Assembly: GCA_903955385.1 (NCBI GenBank)
Contig: CAJBNH010000094.1
Span: 1 to 34,127 of the forward strand
Direction of reading: 5' to 3'
DNA from: an uncultured Myxococcales bacterium
GTDB lineage: Bacteria; Myxococcota_A; UBA9042
DNA: 34,127 bases
The translations under genes and the position numbers were made by a program. The notes beneath the pieces were generated by a model. That model did not search any database. It was given only the letters and a program-made list of their open reading frames with translations, and was not told the DNA's origin. Positions 21,833-29,954 of this stretch are shown piece by piece (the first letter of the stretch is position 1; every line of letters begins with the position of its first letter).

Positions 21833-22765
21833 TCAGCGCCGAATGACGGCCGACGTATTGCCGGCGAACGCGGTCGGCGGCAACTTCGAGGTGGCCTTCG
21901 AGCGGAACGGATAGACCTCGACGATCGTGAAGCTGCTGCCCTTGAGACCCTTGACCGAGCCGGTCATGCCCTTCTTCACTTCCTTGTTGTCGCCCGCGGA
22001 AAGCGTCAGGAACGAGCCTCCGCCGGAATCACGCGCGTCGATGACCGTGCAGTTGATGTCTTCGACTTCGGGGACCGCGGGGGTCGGGGTGGGGGTCGGC
22101 TCCTTGGCGGCAGGCGTCACGCAGCGTCCTGTGGCGCGCACGCAGACCTGACCGCGCGGGCAGGTGACGCCCTCGCACTTGTTCTCAGGCCGCGTCGCTG
22201 TCTTGACGCACTTGTTGGTCGCCTTGTCACAAGCCGAGTCTTCCGGGCAATCCCCACCGCAGGCCTTGTCGACGCACTTCTGGTCCACGCACTCCTGCTG
22301 CGGTGTGCACGCGGCGCACGGGTCCGAAGCCTCGCCCACCTCGACCGCGTACTTGCCCTTGCCGCTGGTGGCCTTGAACCGCACCAGGTAGCGCATGTCG
22401 GGCTCGACTTCGAACTCGAGCTTGATCGTCACGGCGCTGCCGGGCGGGATGGGCTTCTCAGCGACGCGGTCGCCGACCTCTGTGAAGACGGTGACGAAGC
22501 CGACGATCGTCGACTCCTCCCACTTGCCGAGCGAAATCCGCAGCTCCATCTTGCCCTTCTGCTCGGGCAGGATGAACCGCCAGTCCTCCTGATCGCCGGC
22601 AGCCGCGTCGAGCTTGTCGTCGGTGGGCTCAAGCCGGGCGAACGGACGGGCCTTGGTGCGCGACTCGTCACCGTCGGGGTCCTTGAGGCTTTGACCGGAA
22701 CAGGCCGACAGGACGGCGAGCCACGCGGTCAGGGCCAACAGAAGACTGCGGGAAGAACAGAACAT
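21833..22765 (-). CDS. Cysteine-rich lipoprotein
   Basis: 310 residues from an ATG preceded by AAGGTGG. The N-terminus is a lipoprotein signal with lipobox LSAC (Cys22). Residues about 40-145 form a beta-sandwich resembling PPC-type domains (DQEDWRFILPEQKGKMELRI, YLVRFKATSGKGKYAVEV). Two to three short Cys repeats follow (CAACTPQQECVDQKC, CGGDCPEDSACDKATNKC, CEGVTCPRGQVCVRATGRC), Dickkopf-like in spacing, then a Pro/Thr linker. A C-terminal domain (about 235-310) reads like the beta domains that follow GDNKEVKKGMTGSV. The Cys repeats resemble those in the TSP3 lipoprotein 8 kb away. The function is unknown. Confidence 0.75.
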   Translation of the reverse strand: MFCSSRSLLLALTAWLAVLSACSGQSLKDPDGDESRTKARPFARLEPTDDKLDAAAGDQEDWRFILPEQKGKMELRISLGKWEESTIVGFVTVFTEVGDRVAEKPIPPGSAVTIKLEFEVEPDMRYLVRFKATSGKGKYAVEVGEASDPCAACTPQQECVDQKCVDKACGGDCPEDSACDKATNKCVKTATRPENKCEGVTCPRGQVCVRATGRCVTPAAKEPTPTPTPAVPEVEDINCTVIDARDSGGGSFLTLSAGDNKEVKKGMTGSVKGLKGSSFTIVEVYPFRSKATSKLPPTAFAGNTSAVIRR

Positions 22766-23094
22766 CTCGCACCACCTTATGATCAAGCGGACCCGACGAA
22801 CCCGGGACCACGCGGGGTTCTCGTCCCCTGCGCCGACTGCCGAGCCGACCGCAAGTTCCAGATCCAAGCCCCAAGCGTTGCCACAATTCCGCACGAATGT
22901 GCAAGGGGGCCACACGCGGAATCGCGGCGCGACGCGTCACATGTTCACTGTTTCTGGCTTTCTGTCCAGAGGTTGCCGCATCCGGCCGGGAGGTTCCGCG
23001 CCGCGCCCTGCTCCTGCCGTCAGTCGCAACGGCGATCGGAATCGGGTAGAACTCGGCCCGCGCGCCCGGCCGACCGCGCCCGCCAAGGACCCTC
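22766..23094. other. Divergent spacer between the lipoprotein and rdgB-rsmB genes
   Basis: 329 bases without a convincing gene. It must hold promoters for both directions, but no -35/-10 pair stands out. The centre has GCACGAATGTGC (22891-22902), a small inverted repeat embedded in a larger imperfect one (TTGCCACA/TGTGCAA), a possible operator. Confidence 0.35.
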
Positions 23095-25179
23095 ATGACC
23101 GACGCCCTGCCCCCCGAACGTCTGCTGCTGGCCAGCGGCAACGCAGGAAAGCTGCGCGAATTGCGAGAGCTGTGTCGCGATCTGGGCGTGGCCGTGTGGG
23201 GGCCCGCGGAGTGGACGGCCGAGTCCGGTCAAGAGCTGCCAGAGGTCGTCGAGGACGCCAACACGTTTCTGGGCAACTCGCTGAAGAAGGCACTGTCGGC
23301 ATTTCGGGCCACGGGTCTCAGCGTGGTCGCCGACGACTCTGGCCTGTGCGTCGATGCGCTGGGGGGCGACCCCGGCGTCCACAGCGCCCGTTTCGCCGGA
23401 CCGCAGGCAGACGATGCGGCCAACCGAGCGCTGCTGTTGGAGAAGCTCGCCAACGTCGAGGACGGCGCGCGTGGGGCAGCGTTCCTGTGCACGCTGGTGC
23501 TGTGCGGTCCGTTGGCGGAAGGACCCGACGCTGGCCGCTCCGAGGACGGGGTGCCGTGGCGCGCGTTCGTCGGCCGCACCGAGGGGCGTATCACGCGAGC
23601 GCCTGCTGGTGACGGCGGCTTCGGCTACGACCGGCTGTTCCTGTCGCCTGAGCTGGGCGTGACGTTTGCCCAGGCCGACGCCGCGGCAAAGAACCGCCTT
23701 TCGCATCGCGGACATGCCTTTGCCCGGCTGGCCACCCACCTCGCGTCGGTCCGGAGAGGCGAGCCCAAGCGCCCGCTGTACGTGCGGCTGACCGGACTGC
23801 ACGCGCTGACGCGGGCGTTGGACCTCAGCATCGCCCGCGAGCTGCGCTATGCCGACACCGCGCTCGAGAACGCGCTGGGCGAGCAACCGCAGCTGGGTCC
23901 CAAGGAGCGCGCCGCCGTCGCTGAGCTGCATTGGCACGCGTTGCGGACGCTGTCGCGCCTGACGCTGGCCCGCATGGCGGTGCTGGGCGCCGCCGCGCCG
24001 CCCGGCCCGCCCGACCCGCGCCGCCTGGATGCGCGCGATGCCCCGCTGTTGGCCACGCTGGCTGCGACCGATCTGGATGCTGAGGGCGCCCCCCGTAGTT
24101 GGGAGAAGAAGACCGGACCCGCCACGGTGCTGGACGGACTGCTCGACCGCAATCCTGGCTTCAACGAGCGGCTGAAGGTGCCGCGCCAAGGGCTGGAGTC
24201 GGCACTGCGAACCGCGGCCTACGCCTCGCGATCCTGGTCCGATGTCGAGGCCTTGGCATTGGAGCTCGGCTATACGGTCGAGTTCGTGCAAGCGTGCATC
24301 GCCCAGCTGGGGCGCGATCACACGGTCGCCGCCCTGACGTACATGAATCGCCGGGGCCCGTTGACCCTGCGCGTGAATTCGCTGCGCACCGACCGCGACC
24401 ACGTGGCGGACCTGCTGCGCGCGGAAGGGATCCCCACCACGCCGATCGACGGACTTCCCCACGCGCTGCTGTCTCTGGCCTCAGCACGGCTGACCGCGCT
24501 GCCGGCTTTCCAGCAGGGGCTGTTCGAGATCCAGGACGAGGGCAGCCAGCGCATCGCCGCCGCCGTACACGCGCAACCCGGTGAAACGGTGCTGGATTGG
24601 TGTGCCGGCGCGGGCGGCAAGACCTTGGCGCTTGCGGCCGATCTGCGCGGACGTGGCCAGCTGGTGGCCCTGGACACCCACGCCAAGCGGCTGAGCGAGT
24701 GCGACCGACGGCTGAAGCGGGCAGGCATTTCCCAAGCGGGGACAAGGGCTTTGCCACGCGGCGAGGGGCCCGTACCGGGCGTGCCGATGGCCGACGCCGT
24801 GCTGATCGATGCGCCGTGTTCGAGCTCGGGCGCCCTGCGGCGCAACCCCGAGCTGCGCTGGCACGTGGACGGCGAGTGGCTGGGGCGTTTCCCGGCGCAA
24901 CAGCTGGCGATCCTGGAGCGCGCCGCGAGGCACGTGAAGCGCAACGGTCGCCTGATCTACGCGACCTGTTCCCTGATGCGTGGGGAGAACGAGGACGTGG
25001 TTGCAGCCTTTCTGGCCCGCCACCCGGACTACCGCAAGCAGACGGAAGCTCGCTTCGGACCAGCGGATTCGGCGTTCCTTGCCACACACCCCCTTGCGCA
25101 TACAGGCCCGGATGGCTTCTACTGTTGCGCCCTGGACCGGACAGCGCCGGTGACAGCGAGAGAACAACCCTCCGAATAG
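23095..25179 (+). CDS. Fusion of RdgB (XTP/dITP pyrophosphatase) with an RsmB-like rRNA m5C methyltransferase
   Basis: 694 residues in one uninterrupted frame. Residues 1-220 are an inosine-triphosphate pyrophosphatase: SGNAGKLRE, VADDSGLCVDAL, HSARFAG, GGFGYDRLFL and KNRLSHRGHAF. This removes non-canonical purine NTPs. Residues about 220-340 look like the NusB-type domain of RsmB (ALTRALDLSIA, PKERAAVAELHWHALRTL). Residues about 400-690 are a class I m5C methyltransferase: RVNSLRT, FEIQDEGSQ, VLDWCAGAGGKT (about 497-508), DAPCSSSGALRRNPELRW (about 569-586) and YATCSLMRGENEDV (about 621), with both Cys of the RsmB/NOP2 mechanism. Start is the ATG at 23095; the upstream bases show no strong ribosome binding site. 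No stop, frame change or compositional break is visible at the junction. It heads a run with era, der and recN. Confidence 0.88.
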   Translation: MTDALPPERLLLASGNAGKLRELRELCRDLGVAVWGPAEWTAESGQELPEVVEDANTFLGNSLKKALSAFRATGLSVVADDSGLCVDALGGDPGVHSARFAGPQADDAANRALLLEKLANVEDGARGAAFLCTLVLCGPLAEGPDAGRSEDGVPWRAFVGRTEGRITRAPAGDGGFGYDRLFLSPELGVTFAQADAAAKNRLSHRGHAFARLATHLASVRRGEPKRPLYVRLTGLHALTRALDLSIARELRYADTALENALGEQPQLGPKERAAVAELHWHALRTLSRLTLARMAVLGAAAPPGPPDPRRLDARDAPLLATLAATDLDAEGAPRSWEKKTGPATVLDGLLDRNPGFNERLKVPRQGLESALRTAAYASRSWSDVEALALELGYTVEFVQACIAQLGRDHTVAALTYMNRRGPLTLRVNSLRTDRDHVADLLRAEGIPTTPIDGLPHALLSLASARLTALPAFQQGLFEIQDEGSQRIAAAVHAQPGETVLDWCAGAGGKTLALAADLRGRGQLVALDTHAKRLSECDRRLKRAGISQAGTRALPRGEGPVPGVPMADAVLIDAPCSSSGALRRNPELRWHVDGEWLGRFPAQQLAILERAARHVKRNGRLIYATCSLMRGENEDVVAAFLARHPDYRKQTEARFGPADSAFLATHPLAHTGPDGFYCCALDRTAPVTAREQPSE

Positions 25180-25218: not shown

Positions 25219-26643
25219 GTGGCCCCCAACATCCGCAAACCGCCGTCCCGGCCGGGGAGCACTCTGGGGCGCAAGCCTGCCAAGCGGCGCGAGAAGGGGT
25301 CGACCAAGCGCGGCGTCGGCTCGACCCGTTCTGCCCCCCGTCCGGCCGTCTACGATCGCGAGCGTACGTCCGAATTCGACCCGAGGTCCGGCCCCCGCGC
25401 CGCGCCGTCCACCGGTCCCCGACCTGCTGCCGGTCCGCGTTTGGGCGCGGGAGCGCGCGCACCCGTCGACCCGCCGGCCCATCCGGCCCCGATCGAGCGC
25501 CCGCTGCCGCCGCCACCGCCCGAAATCCGTTGGGAGGAACTGGCGTGGGAGGCTGCAAGGGCGCATCCCGACGACGACTTTGCGTCCAAGGAGCCGCGGC
25601 CGTTTCGCTGCGGTCAAGTGACGCTGGCCGGCCAGCCCAACGTCGGCAAGTCCACGTTGATGAACCGCGTCATCGGCGAAAAGCTGGCGATCGTCAGCCC
25701 CAAGCCGCAGACGACGCGCGACCGGATCGCGGGCTACTGGACCGGGCCCGACACGCAGATCGTATTTCTGGACACGCCCGGCATCCACAAGGCGCGCTCG
25801 CCGCTGAACCGGGCGATGGTCGGCGTGGCGATCGAGTCGCTGGAGACCGTCGACGTCGTGGTCCTGGTGGTGGATGCCCAGAACGCGGTGCGGTGGGCAG
25901 ACAAGATCGCCAAGCAGAAGGGGCCGTCGGCACCGCTGAGGCAGACGCCCGCGGTCGCAGACGAAGGCAATGAACCTGAGGACTTCGGAGAGGACGAAGG
26001 CGGCGAGGAGGCCAAGGAGACCGAGGCCCCCCTGCTGTTCGACCCGCGCGTGGCTCCCGGGGAGCGGCGGGTGATTCGGTCGATCCTGCGCTACAACAAG
26101 AAGTGGATGGTGGCGCTGAACAAGGTCGACGTAACGCGGCACATGGCGCTGTTGCCGGTGATTCAGGCGTACTCTGGCCTGCCTCACGTGGGGCCGATCG
26201 TGCCGATCAGTGCCCGGACCGCCGACGGTATCGCGCCACTGGTCGAGGCCATTCGCACCTACCTGCCTGAGCAGCCTGCGGAATTCTCTGCCGACGAGTT
26301 CACCGACCGCAGCGTGCGCTTCCTGTGCGCCGAGTTCCTTCGCGAGCAGGTGTTCCTGCAGACCCGCGAGGAGGTTCCGTACGGCGTCGCCGTCGAGATC
26401 GAGAAGTTCGAGGATCTGGCCGACCTGACGCATGTGCAGGCGGTGGTCCACGTCGAGAAGCCGGCCCAGCGCGCGATCCTGATCGGCAAGGCCGGCGCGA
26501 GAATGAAGGAGCTGGCGACCGCCGCCCGCGCCCAGATGGAAGAGCTCTTGGGCCGCAAGGTCTTCCTGGAAGTGCACGTGCGCATCGAGCCCAAGTGGTC
26601 CGAGCGCATCGAGATGCTCAAACAGTTCGGGTACATCCTGTGA
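25219..26643 (+). CDS. era: GTPase Era with long N-terminal extension and acidic insert
   Basis: 474 residues, against about 300 for Era. The start is GTG with GGAGG six bases upstream. Residues 1-130 are Pro/Arg/Ala-rich and probably disordered. The GTPase then shows G1 GQPNVGKS (about 137-144), the switch PKPQTTRD, G3 DTPG, G4 NKVD and G5 SAR. Between G3 and G4 is an insert of about 50 residues rich in Glu (EDFGEDEGGEEAKETEAP). The KH domain is intact (LIGKAGARMKELATAAR, RKVFLEVHVRI, ending FGYIL). Era binds the 3' end of 16S rRNA during 30S assembly. The stop overlaps the der start (GTGA). Confidence 0.95.
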   Translation: MAPNIRKPPSRPGSTLGRKPAKRREKGSTKRGVGSTRSAPRPAVYDRERTSEFDPRSGPRAAPSTGPRPAAGPRLGAGARAPVDPPAHPAPIERPLPPPPPEIRWEELAWEAARAHPDDDFASKEPRPFRCGQVTLAGQPNVGKSTLMNRVIGEKLAIVSPKPQTTRDRIAGYWTGPDTQIVFLDTPGIHKARSPLNRAMVGVAIESLETVDVVVLVVDAQNAVRWADKIAKQKGPSAPLRQTPAVADEGNEPEDFGEDEGGEEAKETEAPLLFDPRVAPGERRVIRSILRYNKKWMVALNKVDVTRHMALLPVIQAYSGLPHVGPIVPISARTADGIAPLVEAIRTYLPEQPAEFSADEFTDRSVRFLCAEFLREQVFLQTREEVPYGVAVEIEKFEDLADLTHVQAVVHVEKPAQRAILIGKAGARMKELATAARAQMEELLGRKVFLEVHVRIEPKWSERIEMLKQFGYIL

Positions 26644-28199
26644 CCGTCATCGAACCGCTCATCGCCATCGTCGGACGCCCCAACGTGGGCAAGTCGACCC
26701 TGTTCAACCGCCTGATCGGCAAGCGCACGGCCATCGTGCACGACCTGCCCGGCGTGACCCGCGACCGCCACTACGGCACTGCAGAGATGCAGGGCCACCA
26801 AGTGCGCTTGGTCGACACGGGCGGTTTTGCTCCCGGCGAGGAGGAGGGGATGCTGCCGCTGATGCGGGAGCAGGCCACCATGGCGATCGAGGAGGCCGAC
26901 GCGATCGTCTTCCTCTGCAACGCCCGCGACGGCGCCACGCCAGCGGACGAGGAAATCGCCCGGATCCTGCGCCGCACCGACAAGCCCGTGTTCTGTGCCG
27001 CCAACAAATGCGACAGCCCCGGCATCGAGATCGAGGCGATGGCGCTGTATTCGCTGGGCTTTGACACCGTCTATCCGATCGCCGCCGCCCACAACATCGG
27101 CACGCTGGATCTGGTCGAGGCCGTCATCGGCACGCTGGAGGCCAACGGCGCGTTCCATCGGGACGCCGACGACGAGGACGAGGCTGAGCAGCCGCCGGTC
27201 GAGGAAGGCCCCGTGCGCGGCGGGCGCGTCGACCGGGTGCGCGTGTGCTTTGTCGGCCGACCCAACGTCGGCAAGTCGACGCTGGTCAACCGCCTGTTGG
27301 GCAGCGAGCGCGTGATCTGCGCCGACCAGCCGGGCACGACGCGTGACGCAATCGACATCGACTTCACCTATCAGGACGAGGCCTTCACCTTGGTCGACAC
27401 CGCCGGTCTTCGCCGCAAGCGAGCGATTACCGAGCAGATCGAGCAGTACTCCGTCAGCCAGGCGGTGCGCGCGATCGAGCGGTGCCATGTGGCGGTGCTG
27501 GTGCTGGACGCGACCCAATCGCTGGCCGACCAGGACGCCAAGATCGCTGCGCTGATCGAGGACCGCGGCCGGGCGTGCGTGATCGCGATCAACAAGTGGG
27601 ATCTGGTCGAGAAAGAGACCATGACGTCCAAGGGTTATGAGATCGACATGGTCGATCGGATGCCCTACCTGACCCATGTGCCTCACGTCTTCATCAGCGG
27701 ACTGACCGGCCAGCGCGTCGAGCGGCTGTTCGACGTCGTGCGCAAGGTCTACGCGAACTTCAACCGACGCGTGGGTACGGGCGAGCTGAACCGGTGGATC
27801 GAGCGCCAGCAGATCAGCCACCAGCCGCCGACGTATCGGGGCAAGCGCCTTCGCATCTACTACGCGGCGCAAGTGGGCGTACGGCCACCGCAATTCGTGA
27901 TGCAGGTCAACACCTTGGGCGCCATCTCGCCGGGCTACGAGAAGTTCCTGATGAGCAAGATGCGGGAACAGTGGGAGCTCGAAGGCTCGCCGATCAAGCT
28001 GCGCCTGAAGCAAAAGGCCGCCCGACGTGCGCGCACTGGCGCCTCTGTCCCCGATGCCGCAGGTTTGACTGGCGAGGAGACTTGGGAAGAAGGAGACGGT
28101 CCCGAAGAGTGGCAGGAAGACGAGGACACTCCCAAGACCGGCGATGCGGTCGAGGGCGATGACGACTTCCCCACGGCCAGCTGGGACGACGACGAGTAA
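26640..28199 (+). CDS. der: GTPase Der (EngA)
   Basis: 519 residues, longer than the usual 440-490. Two GTPase domains carry GRPNVGKS (12-19) with NKCD, and GRPNVGKS (about 204-211) with DTAG and NKWD. They are joined by an acidic linker DADDEDEAEQPP. The KH-like domain follows (YYAAQVGVRPPQFVMQVN). The C-terminal 50 residues are a highly acidic tail (GDGPEEWQEDEDT to WDDDE). Der acts in 50S subunit assembly. The GTG start overlaps the era stop by four bases and has no strong ribosome binding site, so translation is likely coupled to era. Confidence 0.97.
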   Translation: MTVIEPLIAIVGRPNVGKSTLFNRLIGKRTAIVHDLPGVTRDRHYGTAEMQGHQVRLVDTGGFAPGEEEGMLPLMREQATMAIEEADAIVFLCNARDGATPADEEIARILRRTDKPVFCAANKCDSPGIEIEAMALYSLGFDTVYPIAAAHNIGTLDLVEAVIGTLEANGAFHRDADDEDEAEQPPVEEGPVRGGRVDRVRVCFVGRPNVGKSTLVNRLLGSERVICADQPGTTRDAIDIDFTYQDEAFTLVDTAGLRRKRAITEQIEQYSVSQAVRAIERCHVAVLVLDATQSLADQDAKIAALIEDRGRACVIAINKWDLVEKETMTSKGYEIDMVDRMPYLTHVPHVFISGLTGQRVERLFDVVRKVYANFNRRVGTGELNRWIERQQISHQPPTYRGKRLRIYYAAQVGVRPPQFVMQVNTLGAISPGYEKFLMSKMREQWELEGSPIKLRLKQKAARRARTGASVPDAAGLTGEETWEEGDGPEEWQEDEDTPKTGDAVEGDDDFPTASWDDDE

Positions 28200-28217: not shown

Positions 28218-29954
28218 ATGCTGACCGCGTTGCGTGTCGCGGACTTCGCGATCCTCGAGGCTGCCGAGCTGTCGCTGGGACCGGGCCTGACCGCCGTGAC
28301 TGGCGAGACGGGCGCCGGCAAGACCATCCTGATCGAGGCGCTGGCCGCGGTACTTGGCGGGCGGGCCACGGAGCGGGTGGTGCGCGCCGGCCGTGAAACT
28401 GCTGAGATTGAAGCGCAATTTGAGGGCGTCGGCCCAACCACCGCAGCCCTGCTGCAGGAGTTGGGCATCCCGGATGGCGACGGCTCGCTGGTGCTGCGGC
28501 GCGTGATCGGCAGACAGGGGGCGCGGCGCTGCTACATCAACGGCCGGCTGGTCACGCTCGCGCAGCTGCGGTCGGTGGCCGCTCCGTTGGTCGATCTGAG
28601 CTCTCAGCACGCACAACATCGCCTGCTGGAAAAGGATTCTCACCTCGAAACGCTGGACCGCTTTGCCGGACTGACGGCCACTCGGGAACGCCACGCGCAG
28701 CTGCACGGCGAGTGGCGGACCCTTCGCGATGAGCTGACCACCCTCGAGTCGCGCCGACAGCAGCAGGCCGAGCGCCTGGACTATTTGCGTTTCGTGCACA
28801 AGGAGTTGCAGGACCTCGACGCCAAGCCGGGCGAGCTGGCGGACCTGCAGGCCCGGTTGCAGCGGATGAAGGCGGCGGAAGCCTTGGCGAAGGCCGTCGG
28901 AGAGGCCTCGGGGCTGCTGGGCGACGACGGCGGTGCGCGCGATCGGCTGTCACGGGCAGCGCGAGCGATCGGACGTTTCGCGCACCTGGACCCCAAGCTG
29001 ACCGATCTGGCCGAGCGCGTGCGTGAGGTCGAGGCGCAGGTGGCCGATGTCGCTGCGGATCTCGAAAGCTACGTCGAGCACGTAGAGCGCGACGAGCGGC
29101 AGTTGACCCGCCTGTCCGAGCGGCTGGACGCCCTGCAACGTGCGGTTCGCAAGTACGGCGGCAGCGAGGAGACCCTGCTGGCGCGGCGCAAGGCGGTGGC
29201 CGACGAGCTGGACGGCGACACGGCCGAGCTGCGCGTGCACGAGCTGGCCAAAGCCGTCGATGCGGCCGCCAAGACCATGCGCGTCCTGACGAACCAGCTG
29301 TCCCAAGCGCGGCGCGACGCGGTCGCGGGGCTGCAAGACGGGGTGGCGGCGGTCGTGCGCCAGCTGGGGATGCCGGCGGCTCGCTTCCGGGTCGCCCTGC
29401 GGTTCGACGCAACTGCGGACCCCGGGCCGTTCGGCTGTGACGATGCGCAGTTCTTCTTGCGCGCCAACGCGGGCGAGGCCGAAGGGCCGCTGCACGAGGT
29501 GGCCTCGGGCGGCGAGCTGTCACGGGTCCTGTTGGCACTGCAGCGGGCGTGCAACGACGCCGTACGGGCGGCCGGCGACGCATCGACAGTGGTGACCTGC
29601 ATTTACGACGAGGCGGACGCGGGACTGTCGGGGTCGACAGGACTCGTCCTGGGTCGCTTTCTGGGTGAGGTCGCCGAGCGCCAGCAAGTCCTGTGCATCT
29701 CCCACTTGCCCCAGGTGGCCGCAGCCGCCGACACGCACATCGCGGTCGCCAAGTCGGAAGTCGACGGTCGCACGCGGTCCGACCTGCGGGTGCTGGACGA
29801 GCCTTCGCGGGTGGCCGAGCTGGCGCGCATGTTGGGGGCGGTCGAGGGAGAGGGTGACACCGCGATCGCCCACGCTCGGCAGCTACTGGCGGCCTGCCGC
29901 AAGCGCGGGTCGACTCCCGTGAATCCGATGGATTGTTCGCCGGGGCAAGGCTAG
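28218..29954 (+). CDS. recN: DNA repair protein RecN
   Basis: 578 residues of SMC-like layout. The N-terminal ATPase half has Walker A GETGAGKTIL (about 29-38) and the family motif SSQHAQHRLL. Two long coiled-coil segments (about 150-240 and 265-370) flank the hinge. The C-terminal half has signature ASGGELSRVLLAL and Walker B YDEADAGLSG, then ISHLPQVAAAAD. RecN helps recombinational repair of double-strand breaks. GGGGGA lies nine bases before the ATG, 18 bases after der, so it probably belongs to the same transcript. No LexA-type box is evident immediately upstream. Confidence 0.97.
   Translation: MLTALRVADFAILEAAELSLGPGLTAVTGETGAGKTILIEALAAVLGGRATERVVRAGRETAEIEAQFEGVGPTTAALLQELGIPDGDGSLVLRRVIGRQGARRCYINGRLVTLAQLRSVAAPLVDLSSQHAQHRLLEKDSHLETLDRFAGLTATRERHAQLHGEWRTLRDELTTLESRRQQQAERLDYLRFVHKELQDLDAKPGELADLQARLQRMKAAEALAKAVGEASGLLGDDGGARDRLSRAARAIGRFAHLDPKLTDLAERVREVEAQVADVAADLESYVEHVERDERQLTRLSERLDALQRAVRKYGGSEETLLARRKAVADELDGDTAELRVHELAKAVDAAAKTMRVLTNQLSQARRDAVAGLQDGVAAVVRQLGMPAARFRVALRFDATADPGPFGCDDAQFFLRANAGEAEGPLHEVASGGELSRVLLALQRACNDAVRAAGDASTVVTCIYDEADAGLSGSTGLVLGRFLGEVAERQQVLCISHLPQVAAAADTHIAVAKSEVDGRTRSDLRVLDEPSRVAELARMLGAVEGEGDTAIAHARQLLAACRKRGSTPVNPMDCSPGQG

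Follow-up and report, generated by a model that had tools for sequence, protein, structure and literature searches.

We analysed a stretch of 34,127 nucleotides from an uncultured Myxococcales bacterium (contig CAJBNH010000094.1; hereafter the window). Positions 23095-25179 of its forward strand hold a single uninterrupted reading frame of 694 codons that opens with ATG and closes with TAG, as seen in the list of open reading frames and the translation. The frame encodes, in this order, an RdgB/HAM1 non-canonical purine NTP pyrophosphatase domain (residues 8-219; 23116..23751), a short link (residues 220-231; 23752..23787), a NusB-like all-helical domain (residues 232-395; 23788..24279) and an RsmB-type m5C RNA methyltransferase domain (residues 396-684; 24280..25146). 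The genes rdgB and rsmB are normally separate, and RdgB is usually a stand-alone protein of about 200 amino acids. From an alignment of 18 sequences, AF2 modelled the full-length protein with a pLDDT of 89 and a pTM of 0.84.

Three conserved neighbours follow on the same strand. After a gap of 39 bases lies era (25219..26643; NCBIfam PRK00089, 315.6 bits, over the cut-off), then der (EngA), which encodes a double GTPase (26640..28199, start codon approximate; assigned from the reading-frame list and family synteny), and then the gene of a recN-like SMC protein (28218..29954; Pfam SMC_N). As both Era and Der are GTPases of ribosome assembly, an enzyme that modifies rRNA would be well placed here. 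The order fusion-era-der-recN is kept in the genomes of the family whose contigs are long enough, and several family genomes have rapZ and an M74 peptidase gene upstream of the fusion. In the window, a divergent gene just upstream (21833-22915, reverse strand) encodes a protein of 360 residues that has Cys-rich stretches and matches no Pfam family. In Era itself, about 137 Pro/Arg-rich residues extend the N-terminus ahead of the G1 motif (25219-25629); in family relatives the possible extension is between about 14 and more than 200 residues long, values that are upper bounds, the start codons not being fixed. Further along Era, an acidic insertion, about DEGNEPEDFGEDEGGEEAKETEAP (approximately 25900-26050), splits the GTPase domain match in two, and Der ends in a strongly acidic C-terminal tail, ETWEEGDGPEEWQEDEDTPKTGDAVEGDDDFPTASWDDDE (28080-28199).

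The N-terminal half of the fused protein is assigned to RdgB because Pfam, fold and residues agree. Pfam Ham1p_like matches residues 10-214 (1.1e-51; 175.8 bits against a gathering score of 22.5), and residues 5-219 of the full-length model superpose on E. coli RdgB (1k7k) with a Z score of 26.8 and an rmsd of 1.7 Å over 198 aligned residues at 40% identity. Across the fused family, K19, E53, K65, D80, D81, S82, R99, FGYD 176-179, K199 and SHRG 203-206 are invariant in 18 of 18 sequences; they correspond to K13, E41, K53, D68, D69, S70, R87, F154-D157, K177 and S181-G184 of E. coli RdgB. The catalytic and nucleotide-binding positions that we tested (N10, K13, K53, D69, R87, K177, H182 and R183 in E. 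coli numbering) are all present in the window protein. Among them, only the N10 equivalent (N16) varies at all, being kept in 17 of the 18 sequences. K13 and N10 have been named as catalytic (PMC8893687), and K13, K53 and R87 as the triphosphate site (PMC3899018). The NCBIfam equivalog TIGR00042 scores 129.5 bits, close to but below its cut-off of 145.35, which is a naming threshold rather than a defining feature of the RdgB/HAM1 family. The score has perhaps been lowered by an insertion in the domain, around residues 137-160. In each family genome with any Ham1-family match, the only one is the match inside the fused frame; the two matches in one assembly (G015) are both ends of one gene, split between two contigs. 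The fused gene is thus the sole RdgB of these genomes.

For the middle domain, structure rather than sequence reveals the kinship. From about residue 220 to 395, none of the 18 sequences gives a convincing Pfam match, NusB included, and profile comparison is weak, with a probability of 84% against the N-terminal domains of its closest methyltransferase relatives (branch A, below) and of 9% against those of RsmB. Modelled alone, the domain reaches a pLDDT of 92 in AF2, and the 11 best structural matches are without exception NusB or the N-terminal domain of E. coli Fmu/RsmB (Z 9.6-6.2; best, NusB 3r2d at 9.6 and residues 5-150 of Fmu 1sqf at 9.2), the next, unrelated row having a Z of 3.2. The NusB-like segment noted in the preliminary description is therefore borne out by the domain model and its structural matches, not by a sequence profile. 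The domain probably positions RNA.

The C-terminal part has the full make-up of an m5C methyltransferase. Pfam identifies the ferredoxin-like part at residues 398-459 (RsmF-B_ferredox, PF22458; 4e-10) and the catalytic fold at residues 491-680 (Methyltr_RsmB-F, PF01189; 4e-34, 118.5 against 27 bits). The SAM motif DWCAGAGGK occupies residues 501-509, Cys575 lies in DAPCSS and Cys625 in ATCS. These cysteines are the counterparts of C325 and C375 in E. coli RsmB, of which the former serves in release and the latter is the nucleophile; both are invariant in 18 of 18 sequences. Residues 232-682 of the model align end to end with E. coli Fmu/RsmB (1sqg; Z 35.0, rmsd 4.2 Å, 398 aligned). Reading frame, Pfam matches and residue map thus uphold the original observation of one 694-codon frame with complete motifs of both enzymes.

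Whether this enzyme is the cell's RsmB is a separate question. The fused protein scores 188.6-188.9 bits against TIGR00563, below the cut-off of 269.05, which a copy passes in just two of the 52 genomes of the class. A separate RsmB-type gene in the window's genome (C135:81273-82469), with a TIGR00563 match over its length and a Pfam NusB domain, scores 175.4; because the fused protein stands slightly above this copy, the TIGR00563 scores alone are not decisive. A separate RsmB-type gene also occurs in genomes of the fused family. A maximum-likelihood tree of methyltransferase domains, with references added because an initial version had failed to place E. coli RsmB, pairs that protein with a second Afipia copy (100/88). 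The fused proteins form one clade (100/100) inside another branch, branch A (100/99), together with stand-alone enzymes from the window's phylum, from the phylum of the Afipia relative and from a Chlamydiae MAG. Motif I follows the same division: fused proteins and their unfused relatives have CAGAGGK in common, as against CAAPGGK in E. coli RsmB and, typically, AAGRGxK in the family's separate copy. The separate gene and the tree placement rule out that the fused methyltransferase is the usual rsmB. The preliminary description had called the partner RsmB-like; this stands for superfamily, both cysteines and architecture, but the protein lies outside the E. coli RsmB branch. Given its tree position and its score below the equivalog cut-off, we do not file it as RsmB, and with a separate RsmB-type gene present and the fused domain in another RsmB/NOP branch, the m5C967 target cannot be assumed. 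A further m5C methyltransferase, on a branch of its own, occurs in some genomes of the family (L082, L087) and elsewhere in the class (L105, L108); in the tree, the representatives included fall together with E. coli RsmF (100/99).

The fusion is genuine and fixed in one bacterial family. A single frame spans the junction in 21 of the family's 22 genomes, covering 10 genera, and in the remaining one (G002) a contig end falls within the methyltransferase. The complete copies, 18 in number and 46-58% identical to the window protein, underlie our alignments and residue counts. Stop codons flagged within some family matches sit at the ends of the matches, and the proteins concerned align over their full length. 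The other 30 genomes examined from the class lack the fusion. Among the matches listed for a phylum sample of 379 genomes, near the top of which a fused protein would be expected, none outside the family spans the junction, nor does any in 398 genomes from the phylum to which the Afipia relative belongs. A contig scan returned just two matches, both to the methyltransferase only. One candidate for a second fusion (G032:C123), a match over residues 6-295 within a long frame that includes a TAG, was rejected on closer inspection, as the RdgB part (6-219) alone matched. The long frames around the methyltransferase of G139, G370 and G060 have no RdgB match. The mapping of two-domain proteins across taxa that had been proposed for this gene thus yields a distribution confined to the family among the matches listed for these two phyla. 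We found no published description of an RdgB-RsmB/NOP fusion in the literature searched, whose scope leaves out most subscription journals, in agreement with the earlier remark that no example was known. The pairing is a new domain architecture assembled from known parts.

How the two genes came together is less directly visible. At the loci examined in other families, stand-alone rdgB lies beside RNase PH, amidase or TldD-type peptidase genes, and the stand-alone methyltransferase gene lies beside glutamate dehydrogenase or phosphoglycerate mutase genes; at none of the loci examined in relatives was one within range of the other. In another family, a protein with a match to Pfam 'Bacterial toxin 3' (Ntox3) is encoded next to a branch A methyltransferase that stands alone (L044:7725-9752). 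With the stand-alone genes apart at all of these loci, no intermediate step towards the fusion is visible, and the simple operon fusion suggested at the outset is not directly shown. Probably, a rearrangement in the ancestor of the family placed rdgB before the methyltransferase gene, and fusion followed.

Taken as a whole, the conserved frame, the intact catalytic residues, the selection on the sequence and the predicted folds make it quite probable that the gene is a lineage-specific bifunctional fusion in which two active enzymes share one polypeptide. Its N-terminal RdgB domain would hydrolyse (d)ITP and XTP to the monophosphate and pyrophosphate. The C-terminal part, with its NusB-like RNA-binding domain, ferredoxin-like part and SAM-dependent fold, would be a complete RsmB-type enzyme that methylates C5 of cytosine in RNA, most likely rRNA; Cys625 is predicted to attack C6 and Cys575 to release the product. 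We infer both activities and the RNA target from sequence and model, and we expect the two enzymes on the chain to act independently, each catalysing the reaction typical of its kind. Since RdgB enzymes form dimers, the fusion would render the methyltransferase dimeric. On the most economical view, the link would provide fixed co-production and no substrate channelling, and the chains would probably dimerise through their RdgB domains.

Several other readings of the join have to be weighed against this one. A sequencing or assembly error could have deleted a stop and start that separate two genes, and the window's genome is indeed a draft of 201 contigs. The same join recurs, however, in 21 separate assemblies with copies as divergent as those described above, and the protein is under purifying selection, junction included: each of the three parts has a dN far lower than its dS, pN/pS between close pairs runs from about 0.03 to 0.5 along the whole protein (24-residue windows), and it is 0.26 at residues 214-236. 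An error at the junction and two separate genes in the closest relatives, both raised in the preliminary description as grounds for doubt, thus fall away, since the relatives have the same join and the closest among them are fused too; we regard the error as practically negligible. More worth considering, yet still improbable, is that the gene is fused and its product is cut, or separately started, to give two ordinary enzymes. The link is short, its sequence is poorly conserved (mean identity to the window, 36%) and in-frame starts occur occasionally near the join. None of these start codons is conserved in position among the 18 complete copies, however, and the link ends in a conserved (R/K)P(L/M)(Y/F)(L/V)R motif and varies in length by just 0-3 residues. 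That one half might be catalytically dead and kept as a scaffold or RNA-binding part would fit the scores of both halves below their curated equivalog cut-offs; we consider it very improbable, as all tested catalytic residues are present in both halves and there is no second RdgB copy to take over.

A different matter is whether the two activities, in a bifunctional protein, are coupled. RdgB might be tethered to pre-rRNA or to ribosomes under assembly and clear ITP and XTP there, in line with the shielding of 16S rRNA maturation put forward in the preliminary description, or the state of the nucleotide pool and methylation might influence each other. The adjoining era and der genes point in this direction, as does the near-constant length of the link, and there is precedent in ASMTL, where Maf is joined to a methyltransferase (PMC3899018), and in a viral HAM1 that is partly retained on RNA polymerase (PMC8893687). 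Yet the substrates of RdgB are free, diffusing nucleotides, so coupling is not demanded; the two substrates have no intermediate in common, and the sequence of the link is little constrained. We consider coupling unlikely, although it is the most serious of these alternatives. Slightly less likely again is a dedicated functional unit, in which an ITP/XTP-destroying domain on a pre-ribosomal RNA methyltransferase would bring its surveillance of the pool to ribosome assembly or have it controlled by that process; in a variant, the domain would have shifted, Maf-like, to modified nucleotides released from RNA.

Independent action of two enzymes on one chain thus remains our preferred reading, and even so the fusion is more than a curiosity, because it affects the cell's only RdgB and the join is easily tested by experiment. 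With that sole RdgB tied to an RNA methyltransferase throughout a family, nature has set up a test of a spatial link between nucleotide house-cleaning and RNA maturation, a link hinted at so far just by cases like ASMTL and viral HAM1. The fusion also serves as a marker for the family. It calls for caution in annotation: pipelines may name the protein after one half, or as RsmB despite another RsmB-type gene.

Each part of the protein resembles a known enzyme and departs from it in a specific way. The N-terminal domain has the fold of E. coli RdgB and all its tested catalytic and base-recognition residues, and the fused protein adds to these the stretch near 137-160 and the C-terminal methyltransferase. 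With RsmB (Fmu/Sun, which forms m5C967 of 16S rRNA), it has in common the NusB-like, ferredoxin-like and SAM layout and both catalytic cysteines; in contrast to RsmB, it belongs to the other branch, scores under the TIGR00563 cut-off and has a NusB domain beyond Pfam recognition. Its closest sequence relatives are the stand-alone RsmB/NOP enzymes of branch A, with 38-49% identity and the same motif I, but these are unfused and, in the cases examined, lie beside unrelated genes. The nearest parallel to the arrangement as a whole is ASMTL, in which a pyrophosphatase of the ITPase superfamily is N-terminal to a predicted methyltransferase (PMC3899018). ASMTL is eukaryotic, and Maf stands in place of HAM1. 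To our knowledge, the methyltransferase domain of ASMTL falls outside the RsmB/NOP type. Presumably, ASMTL and the RdgB-methyltransferase fusion arose independently.
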